DNA from: Myxococcales bacterium 68-20
GTDB lineage: Bacteria; Myxococcota_A; Polyangia; Polyangiales; Polyangiaceae
Assembly (NCBI GenBank): GCA_001899635.1
Contig: MKVQ01000027.1
Coordinates: 124,001-188,000, forward strand
Reading direction: 5' to 3'
Length of the DNA: 64,000 nt
Under the pieces are notes generated by a model. It was not told the DNA's origin. It ran no database searches and was given only the letters and a program-made list of their open reading frames with translations. Positions 7,365 through 62,439 of this stretch are shown here, piece by piece. Made by a program: the position numbers and the translations under genes. Position 1 is the stretch's first letter; every line of letters starts with the position of its first letter.

Positions 7365-7396
7365 CGTGCTTCTCCGGCTCGGGTTCGCCGTTAATG

Positions 7397-7743: not shown

Positions 7744-7844
7744 ACGATGGGCACCGGTGAGCTCACGCGAGCGGTTCGTTCGTTCCCGTCCGCTGCTCAT
7801 CGAGCCGGCGAGCGGTAGACTCTGCTTCCCCGGCGGCCACGAAC

Positions 7845-8990: not shown

Positions 8991-9000
8991 CCGGCGTGCG

Positions 9001-10221: not shown

Positions 10222-10298
10222 TCGTCGAGGGTCCCCGGCCTCGGATATCTGGTCAACTTACCCGCTCACCGCCAGTGTGGTGCGCGGCGCCCGCCCGA

Positions 10299-11252: not shown

Positions 11253-11282
11253 GACGCGCGATTTTACGACGAACGAAGCCAG

Positions 11283-25452: not shown

Positions 25453-25503
25453 CACGGCCGGCGAAGGTCCCCCCCGTCCATGGACTCGAGCGGGCGCGAT
25501 TGA

Positions 25504-42175: not shown

Positions 42176-42259
42176 CTCGAGCGCAAAGACCGAATCATTC
42201 GTGATCAAGAAATCTCGCTCGAGTGATCTCCAGCGCAAGTCGCGGCGATTGCCCGTGTT

Positions 42260-43587: not shown

Positions 43588-44409
43588 ATGAGCCGCCTCT
43601 GCGGGATCTGGGGGCGGCCGTACGTCGATCTATCCGAGCTCGTGGGCACCTCGTCCTTCGAGGCGATCGACGAGGAGATCGTCTGCGCCCTGCCCCGCGT
43701 CGAGGCCTCGTACACGGGCGGCAGCTTGAAATGGATGGGCGTCACCGCGCCGTGGGTGAACGCAGATCCGTACGCGGACTACATGCAGGTGATCGAGAGC
43801 TTCTCGCGCGAGGAGCTCGTCCGCTTCGTCTCGTACGGAAAGGAGCCCGAGGGCTTCGACCCTGACGCGCCCGAAAAGCACGCCTTCGGCGACGAGACCG
43901 ACAACCCGCTCTCGCGCGAGCAGATGCTGTACTTGAAGTACCGCTACGGGGTCTATTTCCCCTGGAAGGTCTGCTACCACCTCCTCGAGAACGATCGCTG
44001 GGAGGACAAGCACTCCGGCGAAGGCAAGGACTTCACCGAGGAGGCGCGGCGCCTCTTCCCGCGGACGGTCGCCTTCATCGAGACGCTGCCATTCGAGGAG
44101 ATCGGCCGCTGCGTCCTCTTCGGGATCGAGGCCAACGACCACGCCCCCGCGCATCGTGACTCCGAGCCTGGCAAGGCGCTCACGATCGCGCAGTCGATCT
44201 CGTTCGACCCGCGCGGGAACAAGCGCTTCTACGTGTGCGATCCGAGCGGCGAGAACAAGACCGTCGTCGAGACACCGATCTACTGGTTCAACGACATGGA
44301 CTACCACGGCGTCGAGCCCGACCCGTTCTTCCGCTACTCCATCCGCGTCGACGGCGTCTTCGAGAGCAGCTTCGTCGAGCGCATGCGCGCCGCCCGACGC
44401 TCGACGTGA
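43588..44409 (+). CDS. 2OG-oxygenase-like (double-stranded beta-helix) protein, copy 1
   Basis: 273 residues, no signal peptide. It has a close paralogue at 61609-62439: both share ASYTGGS, DNPLSREQMLYLKYR / TELPLSRRQMLWLKFR, then VYFPWKV and a near-identical end, FFRYSIRVDGVFE. The likely iron ligands are HRD in FGIEANDHAPAHRDSEPGKA and the His in YWFNDMDYHGVEPDPF, with Arg of FFRYSIRV binding 2-oxoglutarate. The pattern is that of aspartyl/asparaginyl-hydroxylase-like folds, but I do not recognise the exact family. The gene stands alone between module C and a histone-like gene. Confidence 0.78.
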   Translation: MSRLCGIWGRPYVDLSELVGTSSFEAIDEEIVCALPRVEASYTGGSLKWMGVTAPWVNADPYADYMQVIESFSREELVRFVSYGKEPEGFDPDAPEKHAFGDETDNPLSREQMLYLKYRYGVYFPWKVCYHLLENDRWEDKHSGEGKDFTEEARRLFPRTVAFIETLPFEEIGRCVLFGIEANDHAPAHRDSEPGKALTIAQSISFDPRGNKRFYVCDPSGENKTVVETPIYWFNDMDYHGVEPDPFFRYSIRVDGVFESSFVERMRAARRST

Positions 44410-45437: not shown

Positions 45438-47663
45438 ATGGAACGGCTGCGGAGGTCCCTCGGGGTGGTGGCGATGCTGCTCGGCGTCGCGTCTGGATGT
45501 GACTCGAGCCCTGCGCGGAGGCCGGTGGATCCCGGCGTCGCCGTGACGACGACCATCTCGGCAGAGCGGCAGCGGGAGCTGGACGAGCTCCAGGCGCAGC
45601 TCGACGCGGTGAAGGACCTGGATGCGGCCGGCTTCGCTGCGAAGTACGCAGTGCCGTTCACGACGACGCTGGGCTACGACCCGCTCACCGCCAACGGCCT
45701 CGATCGGATCAAGACGTCGAGCTTCGCGCTCAGCGCGAACGAGGAGGCCGCGCTCGGAGCGAGGGGATTCGTCACCACCGATCGCAAGCGCTTCCCGAGC
45801 TTCATCTACGGCTACCAGAGCATCTATACGGACGATCTGCCGGTCTACGTGTCGGCGGATTCGATCCTCTATGCGGTGCACGAGTCCTTCGACGAGGTCT
45901 TGAAGGCCCTCGAGCAGTCGGTCCTTCGCTCGAAGCTCCAGCGCCTCCTCGGCAGCATGCGCACTGCGCTCACGGCCGGAGCCGCAACGGGGATCTCCGC
46001 GGCTGCGCGGGCCGACACCGACTTGTACCTCTCCGTGGCCGCCAGCCTGCTCGCGGGCAAGCTCGAGGCGCCGGTCGCGGGCGGTGATGCCGGTCTGGCG
46101 AAGGAGCTGTACGCGAAGGCGACCGCCGCCTCCGGAGCGAAGGTGGTCGTGCTCTTCGGCGTCGATCGCGAGGTCGATTTCTCACAGTTCGAGCCGCGCG
46201 GTCACTACACGGACACCGAAGAGCTCAAGACCTACTTCCGCGCGATGATGTGGCTTGGCCGCATCGATCTACGCCTGCTCGAGACGCAGCCGGACCACAC
46301 GCAGGTGTTCCGTCGCAAGCAGCTCGAGGCCGCCTACGTGCTGCGAGCGCTGATGAACGACGCGGCGGTGGCAGACTGGAAGAGCATCGACTCGACGATC
46401 GGCGGGTTCGTCGGCGAGCCCGACAACATGACCCTGCCGCAGCTCGACGCGCTGCTCGCCGACCTGAAGATCGGTGACGCCACCCAGCTCGCGACGCTGT
46501 CCGACGCGACGATCGCCCAGGCGATCGTGAACGGCGGCTACGGCGCGCAACGGATCTCGAGCCACATCATGGTGAACGGGCTGGGCAGCGGGACGATGCC
46601 GCTCTCGAGCACGTTCCTTCTCATGGGCCAGCGCTACGTCCTCGACAGCCACGTCTTCTCCAACGTGGTCTACGACCGCGTCGCGCGCGGCGAAGTGAAG
46701 CGCATGATGCCGAACCCGCTCGATGTCGGCTTCGCGGCGCTGAAGAACGATCAGGCGGGGCTCTTGCTCGGCGCAGAGCTCGAACGCTACCGCTACGCGC
46801 CGGACCTCGCATCGATGCGCATCGTCGCCGAGGCCCACCCGAAGGAGTTCTGGCAGGCGAACCTCTACAACGAGTGGCTGTCGATGCTGCGGGCGCTCTC
46901 GCCGACGCCGGACGTCGCGAACCCGACCGCGGTCGGGCTGCCGCGCGTCGCCGGAACGGAGGCCTGGGGGCGGCGACTCCTCAACACGCAGCTCGCGTCG
47001 TGGGCGGAGCTCCGGCACGACACGATCCTGTACGCGAAGCAGTCGTATACCGGCGGCGCGGCATGTGAATACCCGGACGCGTACGTCGATCCGTATCCCG
47101 AGCTCTTCACGAGGCTCGCGGGCTTCGCCTCGCACGGAGCCACCCTGATGGCGGAGCTGAAGCTTCCGGACGAGGACCTCGTGAGGATGGTCACCGCGTA
47201 CTTCGAGCAGGTGCGCAGCGTGGCCGCGACGCTCGAAGCGATGGCGAAGAACCAGCGCACAGGCGCTCCTCACTCCGCCGAGCAGCTCGCGTTCATCAAC
47301 CAGCTCACGTTCGAGAACGGATGCGGCACGCCGACCTTCGACGGCTGGTACGCCAAGCTGTTCTTCGCCAAGGACGCCGCCGTCGAGCTCGACCCGGTCG
47401 TGGCCGACGTCCACACACAGCCAACCGACGAGGTCGGGACTCGGGTCGGCAAGGTCCTCCACGTCGGGACGGGCATGCCCCGCACGATGGTCGTCACCGT
47501 CGAGAGCTGCTCCGGTCCGCGCGCCTACGTCGGCCTCGTCTCGAGCTACCACGAGCGCATCACGGAGAACTTCAAGCGTTTGACCGACGAGCTCTGGGCG
47601 GAAGAGATCCGCAAGGCGCCCCCGCCCGACGTCGACTGGCTGAAGGACCTCATCCAGCGCTGA
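45438..47663 (+). CDS. DUF3160 lipoprotein
   Basis: 741 residues from the ATG preceded by GGAGG; the lipobox is VASGC. The DUF3160 pattern runs across most of the protein: LPVYVSADSILYAVHESFDE, YFRAMMWLGRIDLRLLE, LPLSSTFLLMGQRYVLDSHV, ELRHDTILYAKQSYTGGAAC and GYVEPYP-like DAYVDPYPELFTRL. The domain is largely helical with a buried core, is widespread in Myxococcota and Planctomycetes, and has no known activity. A conserved motif with RHDTILYAKQS suggests a ligand site. Not in an evident operon. Confidence 0.9.
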   Translation: MERLRRSLGVVAMLLGVASGCDSSPARRPVDPGVAVTTTISAERQRELDELQAQLDAVKDLDAAGFAAKYAVPFTTTLGYDPLTANGLDRIKTSSFALSANEEAALGARGFVTTDRKRFPSFIYGYQSIYTDDLPVYVSADSILYAVHESFDEVLKALEQSVLRSKLQRLLGSMRTALTAGAATGISAAARADTDLYLSVAASLLAGKLEAPVAGGDAGLAKELYAKATAASGAKVVVLFGVDREVDFSQFEPRGHYTDTEELKTYFRAMMWLGRIDLRLLETQPDHTQVFRRKQLEAAYVLRALMNDAAVADWKSIDSTIGGFVGEPDNMTLPQLDALLADLKIGDATQLATLSDATIAQAIVNGGYGAQRISSHIMVNGLGSGTMPLSSTFLLMGQRYVLDSHVFSNVVYDRVARGEVKRMMPNPLDVGFAALKNDQAGLLLGAELERYRYAPDLASMRIVAEAHPKEFWQANLYNEWLSMLRALSPTPDVANPTAVGLPRVAGTEAWGRRLLNTQLASWAELRHDTILYAKQSYTGGAACEYPDAYVDPYPELFTRLAGFASHGATLMAELKLPDEDLVRMVTAYFEQVRSVAATLEAMAKNQRTGAPHSAEQLAFINQLTFENGCGTPTFDGWYAKLFFAKDAAVELDPVVADVHTQPTDEVGTRVGKVLHVGTGMPRTMVVTVESCSGPRAYVGLVSSYHERITENFKRLTDELWAEEIRKAPPPDVDWLKDLIQR

Positions 47664-47855
47664 CCCCGCGTCGATGCGCCCGTCGCGGTCGTACGCAGGC
47701 ATGGCGCATACGGCCGAGCTTGTCTTCCTAACGACGGCGCACGCCAGGAAGCGTCCAGCTCGAACATGAGACGGTGACGCACGCGCACCATCGCTCGCGG
47801 CGCGCGCGAGACCGATGGACGTCGGCTCAATCGAAGCCGAACTCACCTAGAATGC

Positions 47856-48950
47856 GTGGGCTTGGCCAGGCTGGTAGCGGCATGCGTGCTCATCGTGCTC
47901 GCGCTCTTCTGCCGCGAGTCGGCCGCCGAGGAGCGCGTGGCGCTCATCGTTCGCGTCGCCGGGACGCCGGTCGACGCGTTCGTCGAGCGGATTCGTGGGC
48001 AGGTGAGCGATCTGCCGATCGGCATTCGCACCGTCGAGCTCGACGCTCGCGCGGACGAGCGGGCACGGGCGGCCCTTCGACTGGGGCGCGAAGGAGGCGC
48101 GATCGCCGTCGTGTGGCTCGAGCCAGTCGAGCACGGGGCGCTCCTCGTCCGTGTCACCGCGTCGGAGTCGGGCGAGCACCTCGTTCGCCGTCTCGACGCG
48201 CCGACCGATCGCGCCGAGACGGCGACGTCGGAGCGGCTCGAGACCGCGGCCGTCGTCGTGCGAGCCACGCTCGAGGCTCTCCTCGAGACCGGGAGGATCG
48301 GCCCGCCTTCCCGGGCCGTGGAGCCCCCGCCGCCGCCCGAAAGCGCCGCCCCGAGCCCGCGACCGCCGCGAACGGCGCCGGGCCCCGCGCCGCCTGTCCG
48401 AAGTTCGCCGTCCATCACTTCACGCGCAGCGCTCGGGTGGCTTGCCGTCATCGACGGACAAACGACGGCCGGACTCCACGGTCCGCTCGCACGGCTCGAC
48501 CTCCGCCGGAAACACGTCGGGATCGGTCTGCAAGGAGCGCTCTCGCTGCCCGCGACGATCGACGACGGCGCCGTGCAGCTCCGTCTCGTGCGCGCGTCGC
48601 TCGGCGCCGATGCCGTCGTCGCATGGCCGCTCGGCCGCACGCTCACGATCGAAGGACACGTCGGCGGAGGGATCGCGTCGTTCCATCGCTCGACGGCGTC
48701 GCGTCCGGCGGCGGGCGTCGTCGGCACGCCCGAGCAGACGGCATTCACGGCGGAGCTTACGAGCGACGTCGTGCTCTCGATCGAGCCGCTCCCGGCGCTG
48801 CCGGCGCTTCGAGTCGTCGTGGCAGCGGGGGCCGCCCTCCTCCTCGCACCACCGCGCTACGACTTCATGACGACACGGGGGATCGCGCCGGGGCCGGCGC
48901 TCTGGCCGGTCCAACCACGCTTCACGGCTGGGCTTGGCTGGGTTTTCTGA
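47856..48950 (+). CDS. barrel-like envelope protein with an N-terminal periplasmic domain, module B
   Basis: 364 residues from GTG, with a signal peptide (VAACVLIVLALFCRESAAEE). The N-domain of about 130 residues has the same strand-helix plan as module A: VALIVRVAGTPVDAFVERIR, AIAVVWLEPVEHGALLVRVT and a closing helix ETAAVVVRATLEALLETG. A Pro-rich linker leads to about 180 residues of amphipathic strands (LDLRRKHVGIGLQGALSLPA, RTLTIEGHVGGGIASFHRS) ending in the aromatic-tipped FTAGLGWVF, typical of outer-membrane barrels. First gene of the largest of the three modules; the sigma gene follows after 72 bp. Confidence 0.78.
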   Translation: MGLARLVAACVLIVLALFCRESAAEERVALIVRVAGTPVDAFVERIRGQVSDLPIGIRTVELDARADERARAALRLGREGGAIAVVWLEPVEHGALLVRVTASESGEHLVRRLDAPTDRAETATSERLETAAVVVRATLEALLETGRIGPPSRAVEPPPPPESAAPSPRPPRTAPGPAPPVRSSPSITSRAALGWLAVIDGQTTAGLHGPLARLDLRRKHVGIGLQGALSLPATIDDGAVQLRLVRASLGADAVVAWPLGRTLTIEGHVGGGIASFHRSTASRPAAGVVGTPEQTAFTAELTSDVVLSIEPLPALPALRVVVAAGAALLLAPPRYDFMTTRGIAPGPALWPVQPRFTAGLGWVF

Positions 48951-49022
48951 CGAAAGTGCGTTTCGCCTGAACCCGAATCCGCCACCTCCGCGCACTTGGT
49001 ATGGCGGACAGACGAGTCTCGC

Positions 49023-49655
49023 ATGGTCGCGGCGAATCGAGCGTACATCGGCATGACGAGCGCGGAGGCCCCGAAGAGGAGCGTCGCCGCGGAGCCGCTC
49101 GCCGATGACTACGAGGCAGAGATCCGAGGAGCCGCCGCGGGCGATCGCGCGCTCACCGAGGCGCTCTTCCAGCGCCTACTACCGCGTATCCGTAACCTCG
49201 TCCGCTACCTGACGTCGGCCGACGCGGAGGCGCAGGACATCGCCCAGGAGGCCGCGCTCGCGGTCCTGCTCGGGCTGTCCGGCTACCGGGGTGACGGGTC
49301 CTTCCACGGGTGGGTCGACCGCATCGTCGTGCGCATCACGCTCGCGCGCAGGCGTCGCTCCCGAACCCTCGCCGCTCGGTCCGACGATGCTCGCGACGTC
49401 GACGAGGCCCACGAAGCCGTGAGCGCCACGCCGTTCGACGAGCGCTATGCCGCCCGCCGGAGACTGGTCCTCTTGTTCGATCAATTGCCGATCGAGCAGC
49501 GAGACGTGCTCGTGCTTCACCACGTGCTCGACATGACGGCCTCGGAGATCGGGGACCAGCTCGGCGTCTCCCCGGAGACCGTTCGCACTCGCTTGCGGCG
49601 CGCAAAGGCGCGGCTCCGAAGCCTCGTGGAGGAAGGGACTGGAGGATCGTCGTGA
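49023..49655 (+). CDS. ECF-type RNA polymerase sigma factor, module B
   Basis: 210 residues from ATG at 49023; an upstream TTG at 48996 or an ATG at 49053 are possible. Region 2 is LVRYLTSADAEAQDIAQEAALAVL with GYRGDGSFHGWVDRIVVR, and region 4 is FDQLPIEQRDVLVLHHVLDM then TASEIGDQLGVSPETVRTRL. It is less similar to the other two sigma factors here than they are to each other. Its stop overlaps the start of the TM/TPR gene as GTGA. Confidence 0.92.
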   Translation: MVAANRAYIGMTSAEAPKRSVAAEPLADDYEAEIRGAAAGDRALTEALFQRLLPRIRNLVRYLTSADAEAQDIAQEAALAVLLGLSGYRGDGSFHGWVDRIVVRITLARRRRSRTLAARSDDARDVDEAHEAVSATPFDERYAARRRLVLLFDQLPIEQRDVLVLHHVLDMTASEIGDQLGVSPETVRTRLRRAKARLRSLVEEGTGGSS

Positions 49656-50542
49656 GCATCGAAGACGCCGACGTAGATGCACTCCTCGAGATGGCGAAGC
49701 TCGACGGCGACAGCGGCCCCGCCCGGCCGCTCGACCGGACCGCACTGGCTCGAGAGGTCGCCGGCCTGGTCGAACGACGGGACGCGGTGCTGCGCGCACG
49801 CGGAAAGTGGTACGCCGGCGCGACCATCGGCGGGCTCGTGATCGGTGCGAGCCTCGTCGCGACGCTCGCCCTCGGACAGGCACCGACGCCGGGCGACGTC
49901 GCGCCGGGCGTCGAAGCCCCCCTCGCCGCTCATCCGACCGTACCGGCTCCACTCGAGGAGATCTCGGCCGCGCCGGAGATCGCCACGGCTCGTGCGACCG
50001 AGCTCGAAGCGGTCGACGTGGCGGCCTTGCCCTCCGTCATCGCCAGCGTCCGGACGAGCCCCGCGAGCGCTCCCCCCGCTCCGGCGTCGTTGCCCTCGCG
50101 GAGCGACGTCGAGGAAGTCGAAGACCTGCTCCGAACCGCGAATCGTCTACGCGCCGACAAGAGCTGGGCGGAGGCTGCTCGGACCTACGAACGCGTGATC
50201 GAGAGGTACGAGAGCTCCGGTCAGGCGTATCCGGCGATGCTGGCGGCGGCAGCGCTGCGGCTCGAGCGGCTGAGCGATCCTTCCGGCGCGCTGCGTCTCT
50301 ATCAACGCGCGCTCCGCACCCGTCCGACGGGCTCGCTCACCGAAGAGGCGAGCTTCGGTGAGGCTCGCTCGCACCGCGCGCTCGGACAGAGCGATGCCGA
50401 ACGCTCCGCGCTCCAGCGATTCGTGTCGAGCCACCCGTCGAGCTGGCGCGCCGACCAGGCCCGCGCCCGACTTCGCGAGCTCGGCGACGGCTCTGGCCGG
50501 GAGAGCACGCCGGTCGATCACACGTCGACGTCCGATCGGTGA
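49652..50542 (+). CDS. single-TM protein with TPR repeats, partner of the module B sigma factor
   Basis: 296 residues from GTG overlapping the sigma stop. A cytosolic N-terminus (VDALLEMAKLDGDSGPARP, then LDRTALAREVAGLVERR) precedes one membrane helix, AGATIGGLVIGASLVATLAL. A Pro/Ala spacer follows and then at least three TPR-like units: VEDLLRTANRLRADKSWAEA, YPAMLAAAALRLERLSDPSG and EEASFGEARSHRALGQSDAE. TPR domains bind other proteins, so the outer part may touch the barrel or the lipoproteins of the unit while the inner part holds the sigma factor. No known anti-sigma fold is recognised. Confidence 0.82.
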   Translation: MSIEDADVDALLEMAKLDGDSGPARPLDRTALAREVAGLVERRDAVLRARGKWYAGATIGGLVIGASLVATLALGQAPTPGDVAPGVEAPLAAHPTVPAPLEEISAAPEIATARATELEAVDVAALPSVIASVRTSPASAPPAPASLPSRSDVEEVEDLLRTANRLRADKSWAEAARTYERVIERYESSGQAYPAMLAAAALRLERLSDPSGALRLYQRALRTRPTGSLTEEASFGEARSHRALGQSDAERSALQRFVSSHPSSWRADQARARLRELGDGSGRESTPVDHTSTSDR

Positions 50543-50617
50543 ACCCGATCCGGCCTCGCCTTCTCTCTTGATTGGCGTCGGGCGCATTCCACCCAACAGA
50601 GCTCGGAGTTCCTCACC

Positions 50618-51757
50618 ATGAGATTGTTTCGCGTTGCGGTCGGCTCGGTCGTCGCCGCTGCCATTGCCGCGACGGCGTGCGTAACGGAGCAGAGGGACAT
50701 CGCCGCTGTGGTCGATGCAGGCCCCCCCGTGTCGTTCGTCGACCAGGACGCAAGCCGGGACGCTGCACTCGACGCGGAGTCCGTGGCGATGTGCCCGGTG
50801 ACGACGTGCACGTTCCCGTCGGCGACGTGCCCTTCGTCGAGGTTCCCCTGCGACGTCGACCTGAGGAACGACAACGAGAACTGCGGTGGCTGCGGGATTC
50901 GTTGCGGCGGCGACAATATCAACAACAGCAAATGGACCTGCATAGAAGGTCAATGCGTATTCAGCTGTGCCCATGGGTACGGAAATTGTGACGACAACCC
51001 GACCAACGGTTGCGAAACCGTTCTCTCGCGGGACACGAGCAATTGCGGAAGTTGCGGGAGAGAATGCGGAGAGAACGAGGATTGCCAATTCGGCGGTTGC
51101 ATCGACGTGTGCAAGGCCCAAGCTCTACCGGACAGGTGTCCCGGCGGTTGCACGAACCTGAAAACGGACGATGAAAACTGCGGGACCTGCGGCACGGTTT
51201 GCGACAAACGCCCGGGGTCTTTGCCCAACACGTACCTCGGATGCGTTGACGGGAAGTGCGACGAGCCAAAATGCAATCCGTTTTGGGGCGATTGCAACCG
51301 TGACCGGGAGGACGGCTGCGAAGCCTCCCTGACTACAAACGACAACTGCGCCCGGTGCGGAGTCGCGTGCACCGATGGCAATACGTGTGGCGTCGACAAG
51401 AACCAGATCCTCCGCTGCATCTGCGACGTCGGCGAAACGCTCTGCGACACCCTCGTTTTCAATGAGTGCGTAAGGCTCGACGACGATCCTCTGAACTGCG
51501 GCCGATGCGGCTACGTTTGCCCTGGATCCGGTCGTCCGCATTTCGTACCCACATGTGCAATGGGGGTCTGCGACGGTAAGTGCGAGAACGGCTACGCCGA
51601 CTGCGACGGGATCAGCGAGACCGGCTGCGAGACCGATACGCGCGTCGACAATCGCAACTGCGGCTCTTGCGGAAATGCGTGCGCGCCCAATCAGGTCTGC
51701 TCCGCGGGAGAATGCCTCGTCGCTCCCTGCGATTCGGAAGGACCCCTCGCCAAATGA
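50618..51757 (+). CDS. Cys-rich repeat lipoprotein, module B
   Basis: 379 residues with the lipobox AATAC. The mature protein carries about fifty Cys in tandem units of the type NENCGGCGIRC ... C.EGQCVFSC, SNCGSCGRECGENEDC, ENCGTCGTVCDKR, LNCGRCGYVCPG and NCGSCGNACAPNQVC. These NCGxCGxxC repeats are a hallmark of Myxococcota surface proteins and are often mis-named as tryptophan synthase alpha chain in databases. They form rigid disulfide-linked rods. First gene after the TM/TPR gene (75 bp gap), and its stop overlaps the next start as ATGA. Confidence 0.9.
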   Translation: MRLFRVAVGSVVAAAIAATACVTEQRDIAAVVDAGPPVSFVDQDASRDAALDAESVAMCPVTTCTFPSATCPSSRFPCDVDLRNDNENCGGCGIRCGGDNINNSKWTCIEGQCVFSCAHGYGNCDDNPTNGCETVLSRDTSNCGSCGRECGENEDCQFGGCIDVCKAQALPDRCPGGCTNLKTDDENCGTCGTVCDKRPGSLPNTYLGCVDGKCDEPKCNPFWGDCNRDREDGCEASLTTNDNCARCGVACTDGNTCGVDKNQILRCICDVGETLCDTLVFNECVRLDDDPLNCGRCGYVCPGSGRPHFVPTCAMGVCDGKCENGYADCDGISETGCETDTRVDNRNCGSCGNACAPNQVCSAGECLVAPCDSEGPLAK

Positions 51758-52908
51758 TTCTCCACTCATCCCGTACGAAGCCTCGTTCCGCTGTCGTCGT
51801 GTTCGCGGCCTTGCTCGGCCCGCTCTCCGGGGCGGTCCTTGCGGGCTCCGGGTGCGCCGTCTCGAACGACCCGAACGGTGCCGCCATCGAGCCCGACGGC
51901 GGCATCGTCATCCCCATGTCCGACTCCGGCGACGAAGCATCCCTCGCCGACGCGGGCGCCGACGCCATAGAGGGAGATTCGCTGAGCCTCCCGTGCGCCG
52001 CCGGACGTGTCTGCCGCGTCGAAACACCCCTCACGATCGGTTCCGTCGCTTCGCTGAGCGGGCGCTCGAAGGACGATGTCTGGGCGTCCGCGTCGCGCGG
52101 TGGGGTGATGCGCTGGGATGGCCGGCAGTGGGCGGCTCTCGAATCGACCATCACCGAGACGCTTTCGAGCCTCTACCTCACCGCCGACGAGACTTGGGGC
52201 GTTGGAGGAGTGCTGGCCTTGCGCCGTCGCATCGATGGAAGCAGCGTCAAGACGGTCCAAGCGAGCATATACACTCTTACGCTATCGGGGATTGCCGTGC
52301 TCGCAAACGGCGATATCTACCTGAGCTACATGCAGCCGTACCTGTCCGGCGTCACCGCGCCCGGCGTCCTCGCGAAGCTCATGAGCTTCGACGCCCCCCT
52401 GATGATCGAATTCGCGCCCGACCCGGTACTCGCTGCCACCAACCAGGCAAAGCAGCTGCCTTTCCGCGCTCTGTTCCACGTGCCCGACGAGGCGCTCTGG
52501 CTCGTCGGCGATAACGCCGCCATCGCCCGCTATCCGATATCGCCTTCTCTCGGCACCGGCGTCGTGATGCCCGTCGCCTCGCAAGCCGATCTGTTCGCTG
52601 CGTGGGGACAAGGCGATCAGCTCTGGGCCGCGGGGAGCGGCGGCACGATCCTCCATTTCGACGGAACGGATTGGAACGAGGAGGAGACCGGTACCAGGGC
52701 GACGCTCCGTGCGATCTTCGGCTTCGCTCCGAACGATGTCTGGGCAGCCGGTGACGAAGGAACGGTCTTGCACTTCGACGGCGAGCGCTGGTCGAAGATC
52801 GAAATGGGCAACTATCGCCGCCCCCTCCGAGCCATCTGGGGAGCTGCTCCCGACGACGTATGGTTCGGCGGAGAGCTCGGCATGTTTCATTGGGGAGCCC
52901 TTCCATGA
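51754..52908 (+). CDS. propeller lipoprotein with W-x-x-G-x-x-G-x-x-L-H-F-D-G repeats, module B
   Basis: 384 residues with the lipobox AGSGC and an Asp/Ser-rich spacer. The C-domain has repeated blades: DDVWASASRGGVMRWDGRQW, DQLWAAGSGGTILHFDGTDW, NDVWAAGDEGTVLHFDGERW and DDVWFGGELGMFHWG. These DVWAxGxxGxxxHFDGxxW repeats are common in myxobacterial type I-like propellers (BNR/Kelch-like). The gene overlaps both neighbours by ATGA, so translation is coupled to the Cys-rich gene and the next propeller. The next gene product is a diverged paralogue. Confidence 0.88.
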   Translation: MILHSSRTKPRSAVVVFAALLGPLSGAVLAGSGCAVSNDPNGAAIEPDGGIVIPMSDSGDEASLADAGADAIEGDSLSLPCAAGRVCRVETPLTIGSVASLSGRSKDDVWASASRGGVMRWDGRQWAALESTITETLSSLYLTADETWGVGGVLALRRRIDGSSVKTVQASIYTLTLSGIAVLANGDIYLSYMQPYLSGVTAPGVLAKLMSFDAPLMIEFAPDPVLAATNQAKQLPFRALFHVPDEALWLVGDNAAIARYPISPSLGTGVVMPVASQADLFAAWGQGDQLWAAGSGGTILHFDGTDWNEEETGTRATLRAIFGFAPNDVWAAGDEGTVLHFDGERWSKIEMGNYRRPLRAIWGAAPDDVWFGGELGMFHWGALP

Positions 52909-54092
52909 GATCCGTCACGCTCGCATGCACAGGCCTCGTCGTGCTCGTCGCCTGTGCGACGGCCGGACAAGACGACGGTGCCGCTCCCCCTGGCCATACG
53001 AATACCGATGGGGGCGCCGAAGACAGCGGAGCTCCCATCGCCGACGCCGGACCGGACGACGCCGATGCGCCGAGTGTTCCGGACGCGGAGCGACCGCTCG
53101 CGTGCGGCCCCACCGGGATGTGTGAGACGAGGCTCCCGACGTCGGACCTCGGCGAGCCGCTCTCGCTGCGCGGCGTCTGGGTCGTCGCGTCGAACGATGT
53201 TTGGAGCGTGAGCGCCCAAGGGCTCATCGTGCACTACGACGGAACGAGCTGGACGACGTCCCATCGGGCGAACCGTGCGCTCTACAGCATCTGGGGAACG
53301 GCCACCGACGTATGGGCCGGCGGCGAGCAGGGCCTTCTGCTTCATCGGAGCGCCGGTGGCAGCTGGACGCGGGTCGAGACGGGCCACCTACAGCCGATCC
53401 GCTCCATCTACGGGAACAGCCCGAGTGATGTCTGGTTCACCGGCCGTCTCGGCGCTCTCGACCATTTCGACGGCGCGAAGCTGACGAGCTTCTCCACCGG
53501 TCTTCCCGAGCTTCACATCACGACGATCTTTGGACGTCCTGGTTTCGAGGTTTACGCTGCCGGCTATGTCGAAGGGCAGATGAACGACTGGGCGGTGTTC
53601 CAGGACGAGCCATACGTTTTCGAGCTCTCCTCCACGGCGATTTCGCCGTTCAACACGTCACTGACCAGTAACCTCGCATTCGTTCCGGTCGCCGGCGTCG
53701 CGATCAATGCCACCGACGATGCTCCTCGGGTCGCTCTGTTTGGATACGAGCACCACTATGGAATGTTCATCTCCAGGTACTCCGCCTTCGGCAGAGATAC
53801 TCCCGCGGTCATCGACTACACGATGGAGCCCCCGGTCGGCGCTGCCCCGGGACAAGAACCACCCCTTTTGCTTCCGCCTCCGACCCATCTAGCGTGGGGC
53901 AATGCGTGGAACGACATCCGCATCATGCAGACAGTCGACCGTATCGTGCGATGGGATGGGACTACCTTCAGGCGGGAACCGATCAATATGGGATACAGCT
54001 TCATTCCGAGCCCCGTATTCGGCATTCACGGCAATTCCGAGCACATGTGGATCGTTGGTGATGGCTTTGCTCTAAAGGGGGCCACACAGTGA
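52905..54092 (+). CDS. second propeller lipoprotein, paralogue of the preceding gene
   Basis: 395 residues with the lipobox VLVAC. After an Asp/Gly-rich spacer come blades such as NDVWSVSAQGLIVHYDGTSW, TDVWAGGEQGLLLHRSAGGS and SDVWFTGRLGALDHFDGAKL, like those of 51754-52908. The second half (from about residue 210) keeps propeller spacing but loses the motif, with FEVYAAGYVEGQMNDWAVFQ and NDIRIMQTVDRIVRWDGTTF. The start overlaps the previous stop (ATGA) and the stop overlaps the next start (GTGA). Function unknown; a binding or adhesive surface is likely. Confidence 0.87.
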   Translation: MRSVTLACTGLVVLVACATAGQDDGAAPPGHTNTDGGAEDSGAPIADAGPDDADAPSVPDAERPLACGPTGMCETRLPTSDLGEPLSLRGVWVVASNDVWSVSAQGLIVHYDGTSWTTSHRANRALYSIWGTATDVWAGGEQGLLLHRSAGGSWTRVETGHLQPIRSIYGNSPSDVWFTGRLGALDHFDGAKLTSFSTGLPELHITTIFGRPGFEVYAAGYVEGQMNDWAVFQDEPYVFELSSTAISPFNTSLTSNLAFVPVAGVAINATDDAPRVALFGYEHHYGMFISRYSAFGRDTPAVIDYTMEPPVGAAPGQEPPLLLPPPTHLAWGNAWNDIRIMQTVDRIVRWDGTTFRREPINMGYSFIPSPVFGIHGNSEHMWIVGDGFALKGATQ

Positions 54093-55441
54093 TTCATCGA
54101 ACGCTACCTCGTCGGATGGTCGGGTCTTGTGCGTGCGGTCTTCTTGGCGCCGCGCTTCTAACGGCATGTTCTTCGCCGGGCGAGACGCTCGCCAGCACGA
54201 GGGAGACCGATGCAGGGGACGCGGGAGCCGTTCAGCCGAGCGACGTGGTCGACGCTGGCGAGGACGCCACGCGGTCGCCGCCGCCGCCCTACGACTTCGC
54301 GGTCAAGTGCACCGAAAGCCCGTGCGTTACTCGAATCGCCGCGAGCGGCGGCAAGCACGCCTGCGCCCTTCTCCAGGACGGCACCGTTCGGTGCTGGGGG
54401 GCCAATGTGTCCGGACAGCTCGGGGCCGGCGCGAGCGACGCGCGCCCAGCCCCCGATTACGACGCCACACCGCGGCGGGTCGTCGGAGTTTCGAACGCAA
54501 CGAACGTGGCTGCGGCGGGCCAAGGGGTCTCGGGCAGCTCGTGCGTGGTCTCGGGCGCAGGTGAGGTCGCCTGCTTCGGCTCCAACGCGTGGGGACAGCT
54601 TGGTCGTGCTTCTGCCCCGTCGAACGGTCCTCACCCCGATCCGACCGTCATCGACGGCCTTCGGGCGAAATCCGTGACGCTCGCGGGCAAGTTCGCCCTG
54701 GCCGTCGGAACCGACGATCGCCTCTGGTCGTGGGGCATGAACGACTCCTTTCAACTCGCTCGGCAGCTCGAAGACCCGCCCGCGGGACCTTCGAGCCCGC
54801 CGGCTCATGCCGACAGAATCTCGAGCTCCGTGCGTGGGTGCGCAGGCGCGGAGAACAGTGGCTTCGCTCTCGCCGACAACGGCGACCTCTTGTCCTGGGG
54901 AGGCGGCACCGCCGAGCAGCTCGGCCGAACGAGCTCGCTCCATCCGGACCCCATCCCGGCGCCGATCGTGCTCCCGGGCGTAACGAGCGTGACCGCAGGG
55001 ACGACGCATGCCTGCGCGCTGAGTCACGGAAGCGTCCACTGCTGGGGCGGACAGAACGAGCACGGTCAGCTCGGTACGCGCCTTCGCGCTCAGGAGATGC
55101 TTCCAGCGCGCGTCGCCTTGCCGGACGACGTCCATCCGGTCGCCGTGGCCGCCGGTGGGGATACCACCTGCGCCATCGCGGCGACGGGCGAGCTCTATTG
55201 CTGGGGCGCGAACCGCGCCGGACAGGTCGGAGTCGCGACGCGTCAGGATCAGTCGACTCCTACGCGCATAGCGGGCCTCACGGAGCAGGTGGTGGGCGTC
55301 GCGCTGATGGATGAAGCCGTCTGCGCGCTGCTTCGCAGTGGCTCGGTGGCGTGCTGGGGAGACAACTTCTTCGGTCAGCTCGGGCGGGGGAGCGTCGACA
55401 CGGATATTCATCTAGAAGCGGCGCCGGTCGTATTTCAGTAA
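54089..55441 (+). CDS. RCC1-repeat propeller lipoprotein, module B
   Basis: 450 residues from GTG; the lipobox is LLTAC. Seven RCC1-like blades are visible: HACALLQDGTVRCWGANVSG, CVVSGAGEVACFGSNAWGQL, RLWSWGMNDSFQLA, LADNGDLLSWGGGTAEQLG, HACALSHGSVHCWGGQNEHG, CAIAATGELYCWGANRAGQV and CALLRSGSVACWGDNFFGQL. A full seven-bladed propeller is expected, with Cys pairs that fit an oxidised location. RCC1 folds serve as interaction platforms, and secreted bacterial ones are of unknown role. The next gene begins 24 bp after the stop. Confidence 0.93.
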   Translation: MIHRTLPRRMVGSCACGLLGAALLTACSSPGETLASTRETDAGDAGAVQPSDVVDAGEDATRSPPPPYDFAVKCTESPCVTRIAASGGKHACALLQDGTVRCWGANVSGQLGAGASDARPAPDYDATPRRVVGVSNATNVAAAGQGVSGSSCVVSGAGEVACFGSNAWGQLGRASAPSNGPHPDPTVIDGLRAKSVTLAGKFALAVGTDDRLWSWGMNDSFQLARQLEDPPAGPSSPPAHADRISSSVRGCAGAENSGFALADNGDLLSWGGGTAEQLGRTSSLHPDPIPAPIVLPGVTSVTAGTTHACALSHGSVHCWGGQNEHGQLGTRLRAQEMLPARVALPDDVHPVAVAAGGDTTCAIAATGELYCWGANRAGQVGVATRQDQSTPTRIAGLTEQVVGVALMDEAVCALLRSGSVACWGDNFFGQLGRGSVDTDIHLEAAPVVFQ

Positions 55442-55465
55442 TTGGATGGAGTGAGGAAGGTTCTC

Positions 55466-57265
55466 ATGCGTAGATCCATGATCGCTCTGCTTCTCGTCTC
55501 GGCCGTGTGGGTAGGTTGCTCGTCCGGGCGCGAGGGCTGGAAGAAGAACGACTCGCAGACGTTCGCGCCGCCCGACGCCGGCGGCGAGGTCGACGCCTCC
55601 TGTTCCGGGGTCTCTTGCTCGCGCGACCTCCGCTCCGTGGTCGATTGCAGGGGAGACCTCGTCGAGGAATGCGCAGCGGACCTGGCGTGCGGGAACGGCA
55701 AGTGCGTCGCCCCGTGCACCGCTGCGGCGCTCAACGAAGGCTCCGTGGGTTGCTCCTTTGCGATCCCGGGCATCATCAGCAGGGAGATCGATGGTGGTAG
55801 TTGTTATGCATTCTTCGTTGCGAACAACTGGACGTCGCCTGCCACCCTACGCCTCGAGTACCAAGGGGAGGAGAAGTCGCTCGATGGCGCCGTATGGTTG
55901 CCATCCGTCGAAAACGGCGTCGTGAAGCACACGAAAATCGACGGACCGATCCCCCCAGGCAGCGGAGCGGTGGTCTTCCTTGCTGCAGAGGACCGTTCGG
56001 GGACGAAGAACTGGGTCGGGTGTCCCGAGGGCGTCAAGCCGATCTTCGATAAGCCGCTCGCTGTGTTCGGAACGGGCATCGGTCACGCGATGTTCGTCGG
56101 TGCGGACGTTCCCGTGTCGATGTATGCGCTCTACCCCTACGGAGGCGCCCCAAGCGTCTTTCCGAGCGCAACGTTGCTCTTACCGACGACATCGTTTGGA
56201 ACGAATTATATTTTGATGAGCTCTTGGGGCGGGAAAGGCGATCTCTTCGGCAAGGGAGTCCTGTCGCACCCAGGAACGAACAAGACTCAACCCGGGCAAC
56301 CTACGATCCAGATCGTCGCGCTCGAGGACGATACGTCGATCGATCTCCTTCCGAGGGTCGACGTCCTCGGCGGTCCGGGCATCCCCGCAGGGCCGCGGGG
56401 CGAGGTCACGAACTACCGATTGCAGCGCGGAGAGGTCTGGCAGCTCACACAAGGGAACGAGCTCGCCGGCTCCGTCATCGAGACGAGCAAGCCGGTCGGG
56501 GTCTTTGGTGGACAGACCGCCATGAACGTGCCGGCCGATATCGGGTATGCCGACGCGGACAACAGTCAGATCCCGCCCGTCTCGGCCTGGGGACGTGAAT
56601 ACGCCGTCCTCCCCGCGCCCAACCGCACTGCTCTGATGTCCCGCGGGACCCTGAAGGAACGTGACCTGAGCCCGATTCGTCTCCTCGCCGCCGCCAACGA
56701 CACCCAGCTCGTCTACGAGCCGTCGCGCCCCGATGGCGCTCCCGCACGGCTCGAGGCAGGACAGCTCGCGGTCTTCTTTGCGCACGAGCCGTTCATCGTT
56801 CGGAGTCAGGACACCGACCACCCCTTCCTCGCCGTGGCCCTCATGACCGGCGCGGATGGCTCGACGTCCTTCATGGGCGATCCGGAGACCGCGTTGGCGA
56901 TCCCGACCGATCAGTGGCTCGACACCTACGGGTTCTTCTCGGACTTCACCTACAGCTCCAGCTCGATCTTCGTCACACGCCGAAAAGTGAACGGCGCGTT
57001 CCGCGACGTCACCCTCGACTGCGCTGGCGTCCTCACCGGATGGAAGCCCATCTCGGATGACTACGAATGGACGTACGCCGAGCTCACCCGCTACGGCGAG
57101 CCGCAGAAGTACGCCGCGACCGCGTGCACCGACGGTGCGCATCGAATCCATAGCGAAGGGCCGTTCTCGCTCACGGTCTGGGGCATGTCGACCTGCGCGA
57201 GCTACGCGTATCCGGGCGGCATGGGGCTCCGTCGCATCTCCGAGCTGAACGTGCCCGTGCACTGA
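55466..57265 (+). CDS. IgGFc-binding-type lipoprotein, last gene of module B
   Basis: 599 residues from the ATG with GAGGAAGG upstream; the lipobox is VWVGC. An N-terminal Cys-rich stretch (CSGVSCSRDLRSVVDCRGD) is followed by the IgGFc-binding N-terminal-type domain: SCYAFFVANNWTSPATLRLE, AVFGTGIGHAMFVGADVPVS, ALYPYGGAPSVFPSATLLLP and KPVGVFGGQTAMNVPADIGY. The family is named from a mammalian mucin-like protein. Bacterial members are cell-surface proteins, often with Cys-rich modules, that probably bind matrix polymers. The gene ends the five-lipoprotein run. Confidence 0.87.
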   Translation: MRRSMIALLLVSAVWVGCSSGREGWKKNDSQTFAPPDAGGEVDASCSGVSCSRDLRSVVDCRGDLVEECAADLACGNGKCVAPCTAAALNEGSVGCSFAIPGIISREIDGGSCYAFFVANNWTSPATLRLEYQGEEKSLDGAVWLPSVENGVVKHTKIDGPIPPGSGAVVFLAAEDRSGTKNWVGCPEGVKPIFDKPLAVFGTGIGHAMFVGADVPVSMYALYPYGGAPSVFPSATLLLPTTSFGTNYILMSSWGGKGDLFGKGVLSHPGTNKTQPGQPTIQIVALEDDTSIDLLPRVDVLGGPGIPAGPRGEVTNYRLQRGEVWQLTQGNELAGSVIETSKPVGVFGGQTAMNVPADIGYADADNSQIPPVSAWGREYAVLPAPNRTALMSRGTLKERDLSPIRLLAAANDTQLVYEPSRPDGAPARLEAGQLAVFFAHEPFIVRSQDTDHPFLAVALMTGADGSTSFMGDPETALAIPTDQWLDTYGFFSDFTYSSSSIFVTRRKVNGAFRDVTLDCAGVLTGWKPISDDYEWTYAELTRYGEPQKYAATACTDGAHRIHSEGPFSLTVWGMSTCASYAYPGGMGLRRISELNVPVH

Positions 57266-57327
57266 AGCCCCTGAAGCGAGACATCACGGCGCGGCGACGC
57301 GCGTAGCAACGCGGCGTAAGCGACCGG

Positions 57328-58278
57328 CTAGCACCCTTCATTCACGGCGCCGTTGCAGTTATCGTCCGTCGGGGTGGAACAGTTCTCGGCGGCGGCGGGT
57401 CGTACCTCCCCCACGCATGCACCGAACCCAGTTCCCTGCGCGTTGCACGTCCTCACGCCCGCCTTGCACACGCCGACCCCCGCCGTGCCCGCCGGGCCCG
57501 AGTAGCAGCTCGCAGTCGAGTTTGGCCGACACACGCAGCCGTCGCCGCCTTCGTTCGTCTGCCCGTCGCAGTCGTCGTCCTCCGGCGTGTTGCACGTCTC
57601 CGGCTGCGGAAGGACCTCGCCGACGCAGGGGCCATAGGCGGTCCCTTGCTCGTTGCAAGTCTTCGAGCCCGCCTTGCACAGGCCGACCCCCGCCGTTCCC
57701 GCCGGGCCCGAGTAGCAGCTCTCGGTCGAGCTTGGCAGGCACACGCAGCCGTCACCGCCCTCGTTGACTTGCCCGTCGCAGTCGTCGTCCTCCGGCGTGT
57801 TGCACGTCTCCGGCTGCGGAAGGACCTCGCCGACGCAGGGGCCGTAAGCGGTCCCTTGCTCGTTGCACGTCTTCGTGCCCCCTTTGCACGAGCCCACGCC
57901 CTCGGTGCCGGCAGCGCCTGTGTAACAGCTCGCGGTGGCCTTGGGCACGCACCCGCAACCTTCGCCCGACTCGTTGACCTGCCCGTTGCAATTGTCGTCG
58001 ACGGGGCTGTTGCAGGTCTCGGGGATCGCCAACACCTCCCCCTCGCAGGGCCCGTAGCCGCTGCCGTCGGCAAGGCAGGTCATCGTGCCCGCTTTGCAGC
58101 GCCCCACGTCCCTCGTGGCTTCTGCACCGGTGTAGCAGGACGCTTTCGCGCCTGCGACGCACGCGGTGGGGGTGGTGCCCGCATCGCCCGTGTTCGCGTC
58201 GCCGGCGTCCGACTCACCACACGCGGCGATCGACAACGCAAGGACGCTCCACGACAGCGACGTCGAAAGAATGCGCAT
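57328..58278 (-). CDS. lipoprotein with four MopE-like repeats
   Basis: 316 residues with the lipobox SIAAC. Four tandem units of about 63 residues follow. Each has CYTGxxGTxGVGxCKxG, TCNEQGTAYGPCVGEV and ETCNTPEDDDCDGQVNEGGD, with two to three Asp-rich DDDCDGxxNE loops like those of MopE and other putative metal-binding proteins. The two middle repeats are nearly identical in DNA as well, so recent duplication is likely. Calcium or copper binding is inferred from the motif. It converges on module B and lies next to the diiron gene on the same strand with 40 bp between. Confidence 0.92.
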   Translation of the reverse strand: MRILSTSLSWSVLALSIAACGESDAGDANTGDAGTTPTACVAGAKASCYTGAEATRDVGRCKAGTMTCLADGSGYGPCEGEVLAIPETCNSPVDDNCNGQVNESGEGCGCVPKATASCYTGAAGTEGVGSCKGGTKTCNEQGTAYGPCVGEVLPQPETCNTPEDDDCDGQVNEGGDGCVCLPSSTESCYSGPAGTAGVGLCKAGSKTCNEQGTAYGPCVGEVLPQPETCNTPEDDDCDGQTNEGGDGCVCRPNSTASCYSGPAGTAGVGVCKAGVRTCNAQGTGFGACVGEVRPAAAENCSTPTDDNCNGAVNEGC

Positions 58279-60653: not shown

Positions 60654-60678
60654 CGGATTGGCTCCTCGCGCACGACGT

Positions 60679-61527
60679 TCAGGCGAGGCGGGCGATGGAG
60701 AGCGCCGTCGCGACGTAGGTGACCGCCTCGAGCACGCCGATGCCCTCGCTCCGCTGGAGGGCGATGCCGTCGTCGAGCGGACCGCCGCGCAGCTTGAGCG
60801 GCGCACGGAGGAGGAGCATCTGCACGAACACCTGACGCACCGGGTAGAGCGCCAAGGCGCAGGCGAGCACGCCGGCGTAGCCCTTCAGCGAGGTCTCCCA
60901 TCCCGTGAACTCGCCCTCCGTCGCGCGGGCGATGATGATCGCGAGCGCGATCACCGCTCCGGCGTAGCTCAGCGCCGCGGCGAGGTTCTCTCCGGCGATC
61001 TGCTCGGCGTCGTCGTAGGTGGTCAACGCGCGGAACAGCGATACGAACACGTGGAGCGTGACCTGCCCGAGAACGAAGAACGCGACGGAGATGGCGAGCT
61101 CCTGCACGTCACTGCCTGCCATCGCGCGCGAGGTGATGATGCCGGTCGCCACGTAGTGCGCGCCGGCGGCGAGCCCGGCAGCGGTGTTGCCTCGCGCGAT
61201 CTCCGCGGGCAGGCGCGAATGGAGGAGCAGACGGACGCCGAAGTGGCCGGTGATCGCGATGAGCAGGACGCCCGCCACACCGAACGCACCGACCCAGGTG
61301 GCGTCGCGCAGGATGTCGTCGCCTTTCACTGCCGTCTTCACCGCGTTCGAGGCGACGAGGAAGATCGCGGTGACCTGCCCGACGCCGAGGAGGCGCTCCG
61401 CGGAGTTGCCCTTCGTGAGCTCGGCAGCGAGGGAGCGCCTCCCGACGAGGAAGAGCACCAGCATCACGAGTGTGGTCGCGGCGCCGAAACACACCATGTA
61501 GAGCGGCTTGACGTCGACGTCGTCCAT
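60679..61527 (-). CDS. DUF350 membrane protein (YjfL-type), duplicated domain
   Basis: 282 residues with about eight membrane helices. Two DUF350-like halves are visible: FLVGRRSLAAELTKGNSAER with VGQVTAIFLVASNAV, and LLLHSRLPAEIARGNTAAGL with AAGAHYVATGIITSRAM. The second half repeats the pattern with DDAEQIAGENLAAALSYAG. DUF350 proteins (YjfL, UPF0719) lie beside YjfC-type ligases in many bacteria, and their activity is unknown. It is the first gene of the minus-strand set and is divergent from the 2OG-like gene with 81 bp between, so the two strands may share a promoter region. Confidence 0.88.
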   Translation of the reverse strand: MDDVDVKPLYMVCFGAATTLVMLVLFLVGRRSLAAELTKGNSAERLLGVGQVTAIFLVASNAVKTAVKGDDILRDATWVGAFGVAGVLLIAITGHFGVRLLLHSRLPAEIARGNTAAGLAAGAHYVATGIITSRAMAGSDVQELAISVAFFVLGQVTLHVFVSLFRALTTYDDAEQIAGENLAAALSYAGAVIALAIIIARATEGEFTGWETSLKGYAGVLACALALYPVRQVFVQMLLLRAPLKLRGGPLDDGIALQRSEGIGVLEAVTYVATALSIARLA

Positions 61528-61608
61528 ACGCCCGCGAAGCTACCGGCGGCGCGGGACTCCGTCCACTGCGGCTTGTCACGGGCCACGTGCTCCGGTACGC
61601 ACTCGAGG

Positions 61609-62439
61609 GTGGCGCTTCGAGGCATCTTTCCCGGTGCACCCCTGCCCTACGTCCCGCTCGAGCGCTTCATCGACACGAGCGCTCTCGACGCCATCCACGA
61701 GGAGGTCTGCCTGGCGCTGACCCAGGTAGCGATCGACTACACGGGCGGAAGCCATCGCTCGATGGGGATCATGCCTCCGTCGCGCACGGCCGAGGCTTAC
61801 GTCGACTACGGCGAGGCGATCCGCAGCCTCTCGCCCGACGCGTTCGAGACGTTCCGCTCTCTCGCCGACGATCCGAGCGCGATCGATCGGCAGCACTCGA
61901 ACGAGCTCCGGTTCGGCGAGGAGACGGAGCTGCCGCTCTCCCGCCGCCAGATGCTGTGGCTCAAGTTCCGCCAGAAGGTCTACTTCCCCTGGAAGGCCTA
62001 CGTGGAGCTCATCCCCAACCGTTACTGGGACGAGAAGTCGAGCGCCGAAGGCAAGGACTTCACCCGTCTGGCGAAGACGTTCTTTCCGAAGACGATCGCC
62101 TTCGCGAAGAGCCTTCCCTTCCTCCACATCGGCCGCTGTAACGTGATGGGGCTCGAGGCGAACGACCACGGCACGGTCCACCGCGACGGCGATCCGGACG
62201 AGCAAGAGGCGCCCGACCATTTCATCACCGTCTGCCCCGCGGGGGACAAGCGGCTCTTCCTCTGGGACGAGGAGAAGCAGCGGAAGACGCCCGTCGAGGG
62301 ACGGGCGTACTGGTTCAACGATCACGACTTCCACGGGGTCGACGCCGATCCGTTCTTCCGGTACTCCATCCGAGTCGACGGGGTGTTCCGTCCCGACTTC
62401 CTCGAGACGCTTCGACGCGAGAGCCGGATCGAATCGTGA
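61609..62439 (+). CDS. 2OG-oxygenase-like (double-stranded beta-helix) protein, copy 2
   Basis: 276 residues from the GTG that aligns with the ATG of the paralogue at 43588-44409; longer frames upstream do not resemble protein. Likely iron ligands are HRD in GLEANDHGTVHRDGDPDEQ and the His of YWFNDHDFHGVDADPFFRY, with the Arg of RYSIRVDG for 2-oxoglutarate. Other shared stretches are DYTGGS, LSRRQMLWLKFRQKVYFPWK and DEKSSAEGKDFTRL. The stop overlaps the next start as GTGA, which ties it to the anchored protein that follows. Confidence 0.8.
   Translation: MALRGIFPGAPLPYVPLERFIDTSALDAIHEEVCLALTQVAIDYTGGSHRSMGIMPPSRTAEAYVDYGEAIRSLSPDAFETFRSLADDPSAIDRQHSNELRFGEETELPLSRRQMLWLKFRQKVYFPWKAYVELIPNRYWDEKSSAEGKDFTRLAKTFFPKTIAFAKSLPFLHIGRCNVMGLEANDHGTVHRDGDPDEQEAPDHFITVCPAGDKRLFLWDEEKQRKTPVEGRAYWFNDHDFHGVDADPFFRYSIRVDGVFRPDFLETLRRESRIES

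Follow-up and report, generated by a model that had tools for sequence, protein, structure and literature searches.

An eight-gene cassette family in Myxococcales bacterium 68-20 pairs candidate envelope-signalling heads with five-lipoprotein bodies of separate history

Why should five consecutive lipoprotein genes form a tight chain directly behind a sigma factor gene and its partner? The question is raised by a locus in a 64,000-nucleotide stretch of Myxococcales bacterium 68-20 (assembly GCA_001899635.1, contig MKVQ01000027.1, positions 124,001 to 188,000 of the forward strand), called the window below. An earlier note on this DNA placed the chain after the sigma pair as a group of its own. 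The adjacency is correct, but the extracytoplasmic function (ECF) sigma factor gene S, its partner gene T and a predicted outer-membrane barrel gene O belong to the same unit, which reaches to 47856. We refer to O, S and T as the head, to the lipoprotein genes g1 to g5 as the body, and to all eight genes as a cassette. Our preferred answer, to which we assign a probability of about 60%, is that the cassette is an operon in which an envelope-signalling head drives a five-lipoprotein assembly and that bodies have been moved as blocks under other heads.

The window holds one copy of many. The genome is an 11.9-Mb draft assembly, and copies are named by contig (e.g., C48:247k). A search with g5 gave 144 matches in this genome, fragments included. 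Copies with flanks of up to 20 kb (135 stretches) were merged with the window into 102 segments totaling 2.37 Mb, the weakest partial matches being omitted, and iterative profiles over these segments found 127 g1, 138 g4, 141 g5, 129 S and 253 g2/g3-type matches. A complete g1-P-P-g4-g5 series, where P is a g2/g3-type gene, was closed by 119 of the 141 g5 matches; the other 22, of which 12 stood alone, were excluded. The complete sets are spread over 35 contigs and have kept their reading frames, with g2 to g5 above the length threshold in all 119 and g1 in 118. S lies upstream of 112 sets, and O precedes S in 99 of these. An open reading frame (ORF) occupies the T position in all 112, with a transmembrane (TM) segment at a Kyte-Doolittle value of at least 1.6 in 93; ten of these ORFs without a TM segment and nine marginal ones, possibly wrong frames, were retained in the distance correlations. 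Together the 112 operons have a median length of 9.5 kb and occupy 1.06 Mb, or 8.9% of the genome.

Comparison of these copies showed that g1 to g5 diverge as one block and that O, S and T, together with the g1 signal peptide, diverge as another. Across the 112 cassettes (the seven bodies without S were excluded from head-body comparisons), pairwise protein distances of the body genes correlated among themselves with rho values of 0.69 to 0.83, S with T at 0.36, and O with S and T at 0.50 and 0.30, respectively. S or T against any body gene gave 0.00 to 0.10, and O against the body gave −0.07 to −0.01. Nearest neighbors agreed between body genes in 53 to 68 of the 112 cassettes and between S and T in 45. 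FastTree phylogenies had 37 to 47 supported splits in common within the body, 21 between S and T, and 1 when S or T was set against any gene of the body. Among the 17 pairs with a mean g2-g5 identity of at least 0.80, S identity was 0.23 to 0.39 and T identity 0.18 to 0.37, and just 1 of the 39 pairs at or above 0.70 had an S identity of 0.5 or more. Wherever one body gene was at least 75% identical, the other four were all at least 55% identical (24/24 pairs for g2, 22/22 for g3, 29/29 for g4, and 35/35 for g5), and S reached 55% in none of these pairs. The window cassette behaves likewise: its nearest body (C48:247k) is 72% identical, yet S and T there are 19% and 22% identical, and its nearest head (C48:69k) has S at 44% and T at 39%, yet a body at 29%. 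In 14 close pairs, dN/dS was 0.38 to 0.50.

The boundary between the two blocks could be placed within g1. Ten pairs were aligned at the DNA level, eight picked as body pairs and two as pairs with close heads. In all eight body pairs homology starts 943 to 1090 nucleotides (nt) ahead of the g1 stop codon; it ends no more than 14 nt from the g5 stop in seven, one of which shows a second stretch of homology farther downstream that contains an RCC1-like gene, and 87 nt past the stop in the eighth. In one head-close pair, homology extends from upstream of O to a point inside g1, beyond which the sequences differ; the second pair can be aligned over its whole length. A scan along g1 in 89 of the 112 cassettes (the 23 without a callable g1 start were excluded) gave the same picture, the first ~50 residues correlating with the head at 0.08 to 0.17 and with the body at −0.01 to 0.03, and the residues beyond correlating with the body at 0.2 to 0.62 and not with the head. 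Signal peptide identity was 28% in 68 head-close pairs, 15% in 21 body-close pairs and 15% in all pairs. The switch point lies within the g1 tail past the lipobox Cys, the distal tail already following the body. The whole tail was rejected as a contact for T: it tracks the body more than T (0.29 versus 0.11) owing to its distal, body-linked part, and only the signal peptide and the proximal section of the tail are linked to the head.

The same set of genes recurs in related genomes, as the earlier note had proposed to check. A g1 profile (E 1e-40) run on 12 genomes of the genus gave at least 133 matches in the own genome (among the best 150 of 205 candidates), 39 in a second genome of the same architecture (G003) and 12 in a third (G006); the other nine had 4, 3, 2 and 1 in four and none in five. 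In 115 sampled genomes of the order (up to 19 candidates each; the sample does not include G003 and G006, both of which would have given matches), strong matches occurred in the own genome only, with two marginal single matches elsewhere. Among 80 loci from named genomes, the cassette, or as much of it as the contig allows, was found in the Labilithrix metagenome-assembled genomes (MAGs) ACE_MYX5, MYX7, MYX8 and RYN_370, in Polyangiaceae bin.255 and in ACE_MYX12. Loci of Sorangium, Polyangium, Nannocystis and Minicystis differ in that their g5-type genes have no g1, propeller or g4 relatives alongside; some have other S or T matches nearby. A plasmid collection yielded one distant partial match. 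Co-occurrence is thus strongly supported, by 119 complete sets in the own genome and by the same architecture in G003 and on Labilithrix MAG contigs. In some cassettes an extra RCC1-like gene lies past g5 (L169, L170 and L174; contigs C21 and C42 of the own genome, G000), and between C21 and C42 the homology of the bodies takes in this gene as well. A broken g5 remnant with a stop (G000:C48:255579-255988; L013:15086-15483) lies downstream of the cassette whose body is nearest to that of the window.

Cross-species comparison revealed both intact and mixed cassettes. Of 20 G003 loci, 15 were matched gene by gene to own-genome cassettes. Nine were read as intact (L150, L151, L152, L155, L156, L157, L161, L166 and L167), meaning that S, T where matched, and the body are all nearest to the same or nearly the same cassette; T had no useful match in L156 and L161, and g2 of L161 finds its best match in a different cassette. 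Five loci (L153, L148, L149, L159 and L160) have different best partners for head and body, and L154 has kept its head with a body about equally close to several cassettes. L153 is the sole clean mosaic, its body being 85 to 92% identical to C16:410k over 2440-9231 and its head related to C6:136k over 9416-11788, where the DNA aligns at 72%; the block alignment of this locus is noisy. In such mosaics either the head or the body may have moved. In the eight pairs shown, alignable DNA starts at about the start of O. In the intact pair L151/C42:251k, S is 89% identical and g2 to g5 are 79 to 87% identical. Since S is about as conserved as the body here, faster evolution or saturation of S does not explain the low head-body correlations.

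The spacing of the genes (Table 1) bears on how tightly the chain is coupled. The three 4-bp start/stop overlaps and the 24-bp gap described for the window were recovered on rereading the ORFs. Counting an overlap as an in-frame start inside NTGA, with the expectation taken from a random downstream frame, we found overlaps in 115 of the 119 sets at g1/g2 (38.7 expected), in 116 at g2/g3 (39.3 expected) and in 86 at g4/g5 (29.7 expected), where the window has none. At g3/g4 the count was 40 versus 33.0 expected, about chance, so the overlap that the window has there is not characteristic of the family. Translational coupling along the chain, as first proposed, therefore applies nearly always to g1/g2 and g2/g3 and often to g4/g5, but it is not general over the whole chain. 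The proposal that the five proteins may build one complex has support of another kind: g1 to g5 stay together in all pairs tested, and this codivergence fits one assembly. S and T overlap by NTGA in 85 of the 112 cassettes, and the T stop is a median of 16 nt from the g1 start (89 cassettes). In the window this distance is 75 nt, O and S are 45 to 72 nt apart depending on the choice of S start, and 192 nt separate O from the preceding gene.

Table 1. Genes of the window cassette and the extent of its body homology (window positions)
Feature	Position	Strand	Description
O	47856..48950	+	First head gene; signal peptide, alpha/beta domain, Pro-rich linker, predicted outer-membrane beta-barrel
S	49023..49655	+	ECF sigma factor; alternative start is an in-frame TTG at 48996
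T	49652..50542	+	Candidate anti-sigma factor with a short N-tail, a single TM segment, a Pro-rich region and TPR repeats; overlaps S by GTGA
g1	50618..51757	+	Cys-rich lipoprotein; first ~50 codons track head, remainder tracks body
g2	51754..52908	+	Propeller-like lipoprotein; ATGA overlap with g1 (51754-51757)
g3	52905..54092	+	Propeller-like lipoprotein; ATGA overlap with g2 (52905-52908)
g4	54089..55441	+	Lipoprotein with RCC1-type propeller (7 stretches match RCC1); overlaps g3 by GTGA (54089-54092); stop TAA 55439-55441
g5	55466..57265	+	IgGFc-binding-type (PF17517) lipoprotein, all-beta; ATG at 55466, 24-bp gap after g4; in-frame TTG at 55442
Body block	50789..57261	+	blastn: 76% DNA identity to body of nearest paralog C48:247k (−968 to 5504 relative to g1 stop)

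We propose that the eight genes would be transcribed together and that O, as an outer-membrane barrel with an N-terminal alpha/beta domain, would read a cue and pass it to T. T, acting as an anti-sigma factor, would then set S free, and freed S would transcribe its own operon, so that each body would be displayed only under its own cue. The products of g1 to g5 probably assemble on the cell surface, with one Cys-stapled scaffold, propellers and an adhesin-like protein making up a binding structure. Relocation would place the body under the heads of other copies as a single block that begins just past the signal peptide of g1 and runs to the stop of g5. A more far-reaching version, which we regard as tentative, is a combinatorial interface in which more than 100 private outer-membrane-to-sigma channels would be wired to more than 100 five-lipoprotein surface assemblies, the g1 N terminus would be a fixed plug point through which any body could come under any channel, and the wiring of cue to surface structure would itself evolve.

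One competing idea makes the five lipoproteins a sensor that serves the sigma pair, external ligand binding being read by T and each body being coadapted to its own head. Head and body are adjacent on the same strand with short gaps, their types show a weak broad association, and the head-linked portion of g1, its signal peptide and proximal tail, could be a contact surface for T. We nevertheless consider this unlikely, as head-body distances are uncorrelated and similar bodies are found behind S and T genes that are unrelated. Bodies under unrelated heads, together with purifying selection, indicate that the body is best seen as an output rather than as a partner read by T. Plain lineage-specific amplification, with the five lipoproteins held together by linkage and the heads as mere neighbors, seems no more plausible than the sensor. 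A copy number that runs from 0 to at least 133 within one genus would suit it, as would the fact that overlaps are common in operons and that g3/g4 is at chance; against this, order and composition are kept in 119 sets with long open frames, the 14 close pairs are under purifying selection, S is present in 112 of 119 sets and the S/T overlap is widespread. Antigenic or phase variation, in which bodies would form a reservoir of variants that recombination carries into expressed sites within a lineage, is the least probable of the three. The many copies and the block-wise body moves with similar boundaries recall such systems, but all but 7 of the 119 bodies come with a sigma gene of their own, dN/dS is below 1, and the closest body pair has a mean g2-g5 identity of 0.88, so there are no recent copies. 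The recent near-identical exchanges that mark silent cassettes were not found among the ten aligned pairs, the best of which reached 87.9% DNA identity.

Several observations weigh against the preferred reading, an operon whose signalling head drives a movable body. The assembly is a draft of 52 contigs (completeness 98.4, contamination 4.2). Head and body are not wholly independent: their nearest neighbors agree in 2 to 7 of 112 cassettes where ~1 is expected, the 49 pairs with an S identity of at least 0.6 show a median body identity of 0.46 versus 0.31 for all pairs, and the close body pair C40:484k/C48:540k has retained its head (S 0.72). No g1 lies downstream of 31 of 137 O loci (among the best 150 of 450 candidates), which implies that heads are not bound to a g1-g5 output and serve other outputs or stand alone. 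The chance-level g3/g4 junction, the low-confidence model of O (predicted template modelling score [pTM] 0.44) and the absence of any Pfam anti-sigma domain or FecR from 15 T sequences, which match mainly TPR and YfiO, count on the same side. So does the promoter evidence, which is thin. Upstream of O in 99 cassettes, a search with gapped words found no convincing shared bipartite promoter. The word TAGNCT, a possible −10 element, occurs in only 16 of the 99 within the 220 nt nearest O, versus 1 further upstream and 1.8 expected, and the control word CAGNCT occurs in 6 near and 10 far; we treat GNTAG/TAGNCT as a weak lead to a promoter element. In the window, CTAGAAT was rejected as a promoter for lying too near the called O start, and no sigma-70-type promoter was found in 47500-57600 (0.9 expected).

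The body proteins belong to or resemble known families one by one. The protein identities read from the window sequence were borne out by Pfam for the Cys-rich g1, the RCC1-type g4 and the IgGFc-binding-type g5, but for the propellers g2 and g3 only weak or profile-level matches were obtained. g1 matches PF04885 (Stig1) above threshold (6.6e-7, 30.1 versus 24.1 bits) and is below the NCBIfam cutoff for the MXAN_6577-like Cys-rich family NF041328 (80.9 versus 100 bits); in an alignment of 23 g1 sequences, 43 of the 59 invariant columns are Cys. g2 has a YCF48/BNR (PSII_BNR) match alone, weak and below cutoff (8e-4). g3 has no Pfam match, and a profile of its relatives (A6) reaches tectonin 2, a propeller lectin, across 67 positions (1.1e-5). 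g4 matches RCC1 at 5e-45 and UVR8 at 6e-37. g5 matches PF17517 at 5e-85 (285.8 bits versus a gathering score of 25.6), and its AlphaFold2 (AF2) model is confident (predicted local distance difference test [pLDDT] 84.8, pTM 0.86). A sequence search gave no g5 relative of solved structure. Foldseek gave a query-normalized TM score of no more than ~0.13 among the 50 matches listed, the best target-normalized score being 0.45 for a 116-residue chain. In a second structural comparison the best Z score was 7.9 (1nc7_D, root mean square deviation [rmsd] 4.0, 101 aligned residues), and the Sgo0707 adhesin domain scored 6.1 (rmsd 3.3, 98 aligned). A fold assignment for g5 was dropped because these matches are weak and include adhesin and pilin domains among others. 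The tectonin-like, RCC1-type and possibly adhesin-like parts suggest glycan or surface recognition. Each protein had been credited with its own signal peptide and lipobox; translations inspected by eye show a Cys-ended signal-like stretch in all five (ATAC, GSGC, LVAC, LTAC and WVGC for g1 to g5), but g2 and g5 are atypical at −3. By a pattern rule, a lipobox is present in 75, 80, 78, 84 and 89 of the 119 sets, respectively.

Among the head proteins, S is assigned by Pfam Sigma70_r4_2 (1.4e-15) and Sigma70_r2 (5.2e-10) and by TIGR02937 (7.5e-25). The O profile recovers the window copy (C27:171871-172947) at 1.3e-39. Window O has no Pfam match, Foldseek returned nothing for it with E below 0.001, and 24 O proteins gave no TonB-receptor Pfam match. 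The AF2 model of O (364 residues, pLDDT 64.6) has eight long strands within residues 186-363, and residues 182-364 align almost solely with outer-membrane barrels (best Z 10.5, rmsd 3.3, 162 aligned). T of the window matches TPR_6 (4e-7), TPR matches recur in part of the 15 T sequences, and LP[SNDATG] follows the TM segment in 87 of 112; the T alignment (A4) excludes 6 of 20 sequences that have no TM segment. T often contains SVxxLPS, and the post-lipobox g1 tail (89 cassettes) often has a short hydrophobic strand and a PSFxxPDAG-like motif.

The head invites comparison with FecA/FecR/FecI cell-surface signalling. As in that system (PMC5411451), an ECF sigma gene neighbors a gene whose single-pass membrane product has a short N-tail and a larger C-terminal part, and an outer-membrane barrel gene encodes an N-terminal alpha/beta domain and a long linker. 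The N-tail/TM/periplasmic topology of the partner recurs in the family (an ORF in 112 of 112 cassettes, a TM segment in 93), as does a barrel gene next to the sigma pair (99 of 112; best Z 10.5 with a model of pTM 0.44). Fec has a 22-strand TonB-dependent receptor, whereas O is predicted to be a small barrel of ~8 strands; T has TPR repeats and no FecR match; and the output here is five lipoproteins. Neither a TonB receptor (24 O proteins) nor a FecR domain (15 T sequences) was detected. The codiverging barrel, ECF sigma factor and single-pass partner thus resemble cell-surface signalling in which a small barrel would replace the TonB receptor. Polysaccharide utilization loci (PULs) are numerous within one Bacteroides genome. 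Many of them have their own ECF sigma/anti-sigma pair and surface lipoproteins (PMC3243724), a layout that the cassettes, with their proposed regulator pair, resemble. A Pfam scan of the window operon found no SusC, SusD or carbohydrate enzyme among its proteins. A further difference is the reassortment of head and body seen in the cassettes. A literature search, judged from titles and the openings of abstracts, found no description of the eight-gene cassette.

Other parts of the window contain related pieces. A second O-S-T-like head without a five-lipoprotein body lies at 23822-26556 on the minus strand (O 25504-26556, sigma 24784-25455, T-like 23822-24940) and is followed by a small lipoprotein-like ORF (23232-23825). 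A third head-like group, also without a body, lies at 41759-43374 on the plus strand (partial O-profile match 41759-42172, sigma-like ORF 42260-42847, short ORF 42844-43374). Two similar ORFs with common motifs such as YTGGS and FRYSIRVDGVF flank the operon, at 43588-44409 and within 60658-62439 (plus strand). Convergent toward the end of the chain, a minus-strand gene at 57328-58278 encodes a repeat protein that is rich in Cys and has metal-binding motifs of the MopE type.

A single operon family takes up close to a tenth of this 12-Mb genome. A sigma region-4 domain search found at least 150 matches in this genome (the best 150 of 443), and Sorangium So0157-2 is reported to have 109 sigma factors (PMC3696898); the cassettes may account for part of the sigma factor excess in large myxobacterial genomes, at least in this clade. 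Because one cell contains 112 sets of sigma factor and partner with swapped outputs, the family is a natural experiment on sigma orthogonality and regulatory rewiring, and the surface function of the g1 to g5 lipoproteins becomes testable. The pattern suggests that the genome encodes an extensive set of cell-envelope structures that can be rewired, each governed by a switch of its own.

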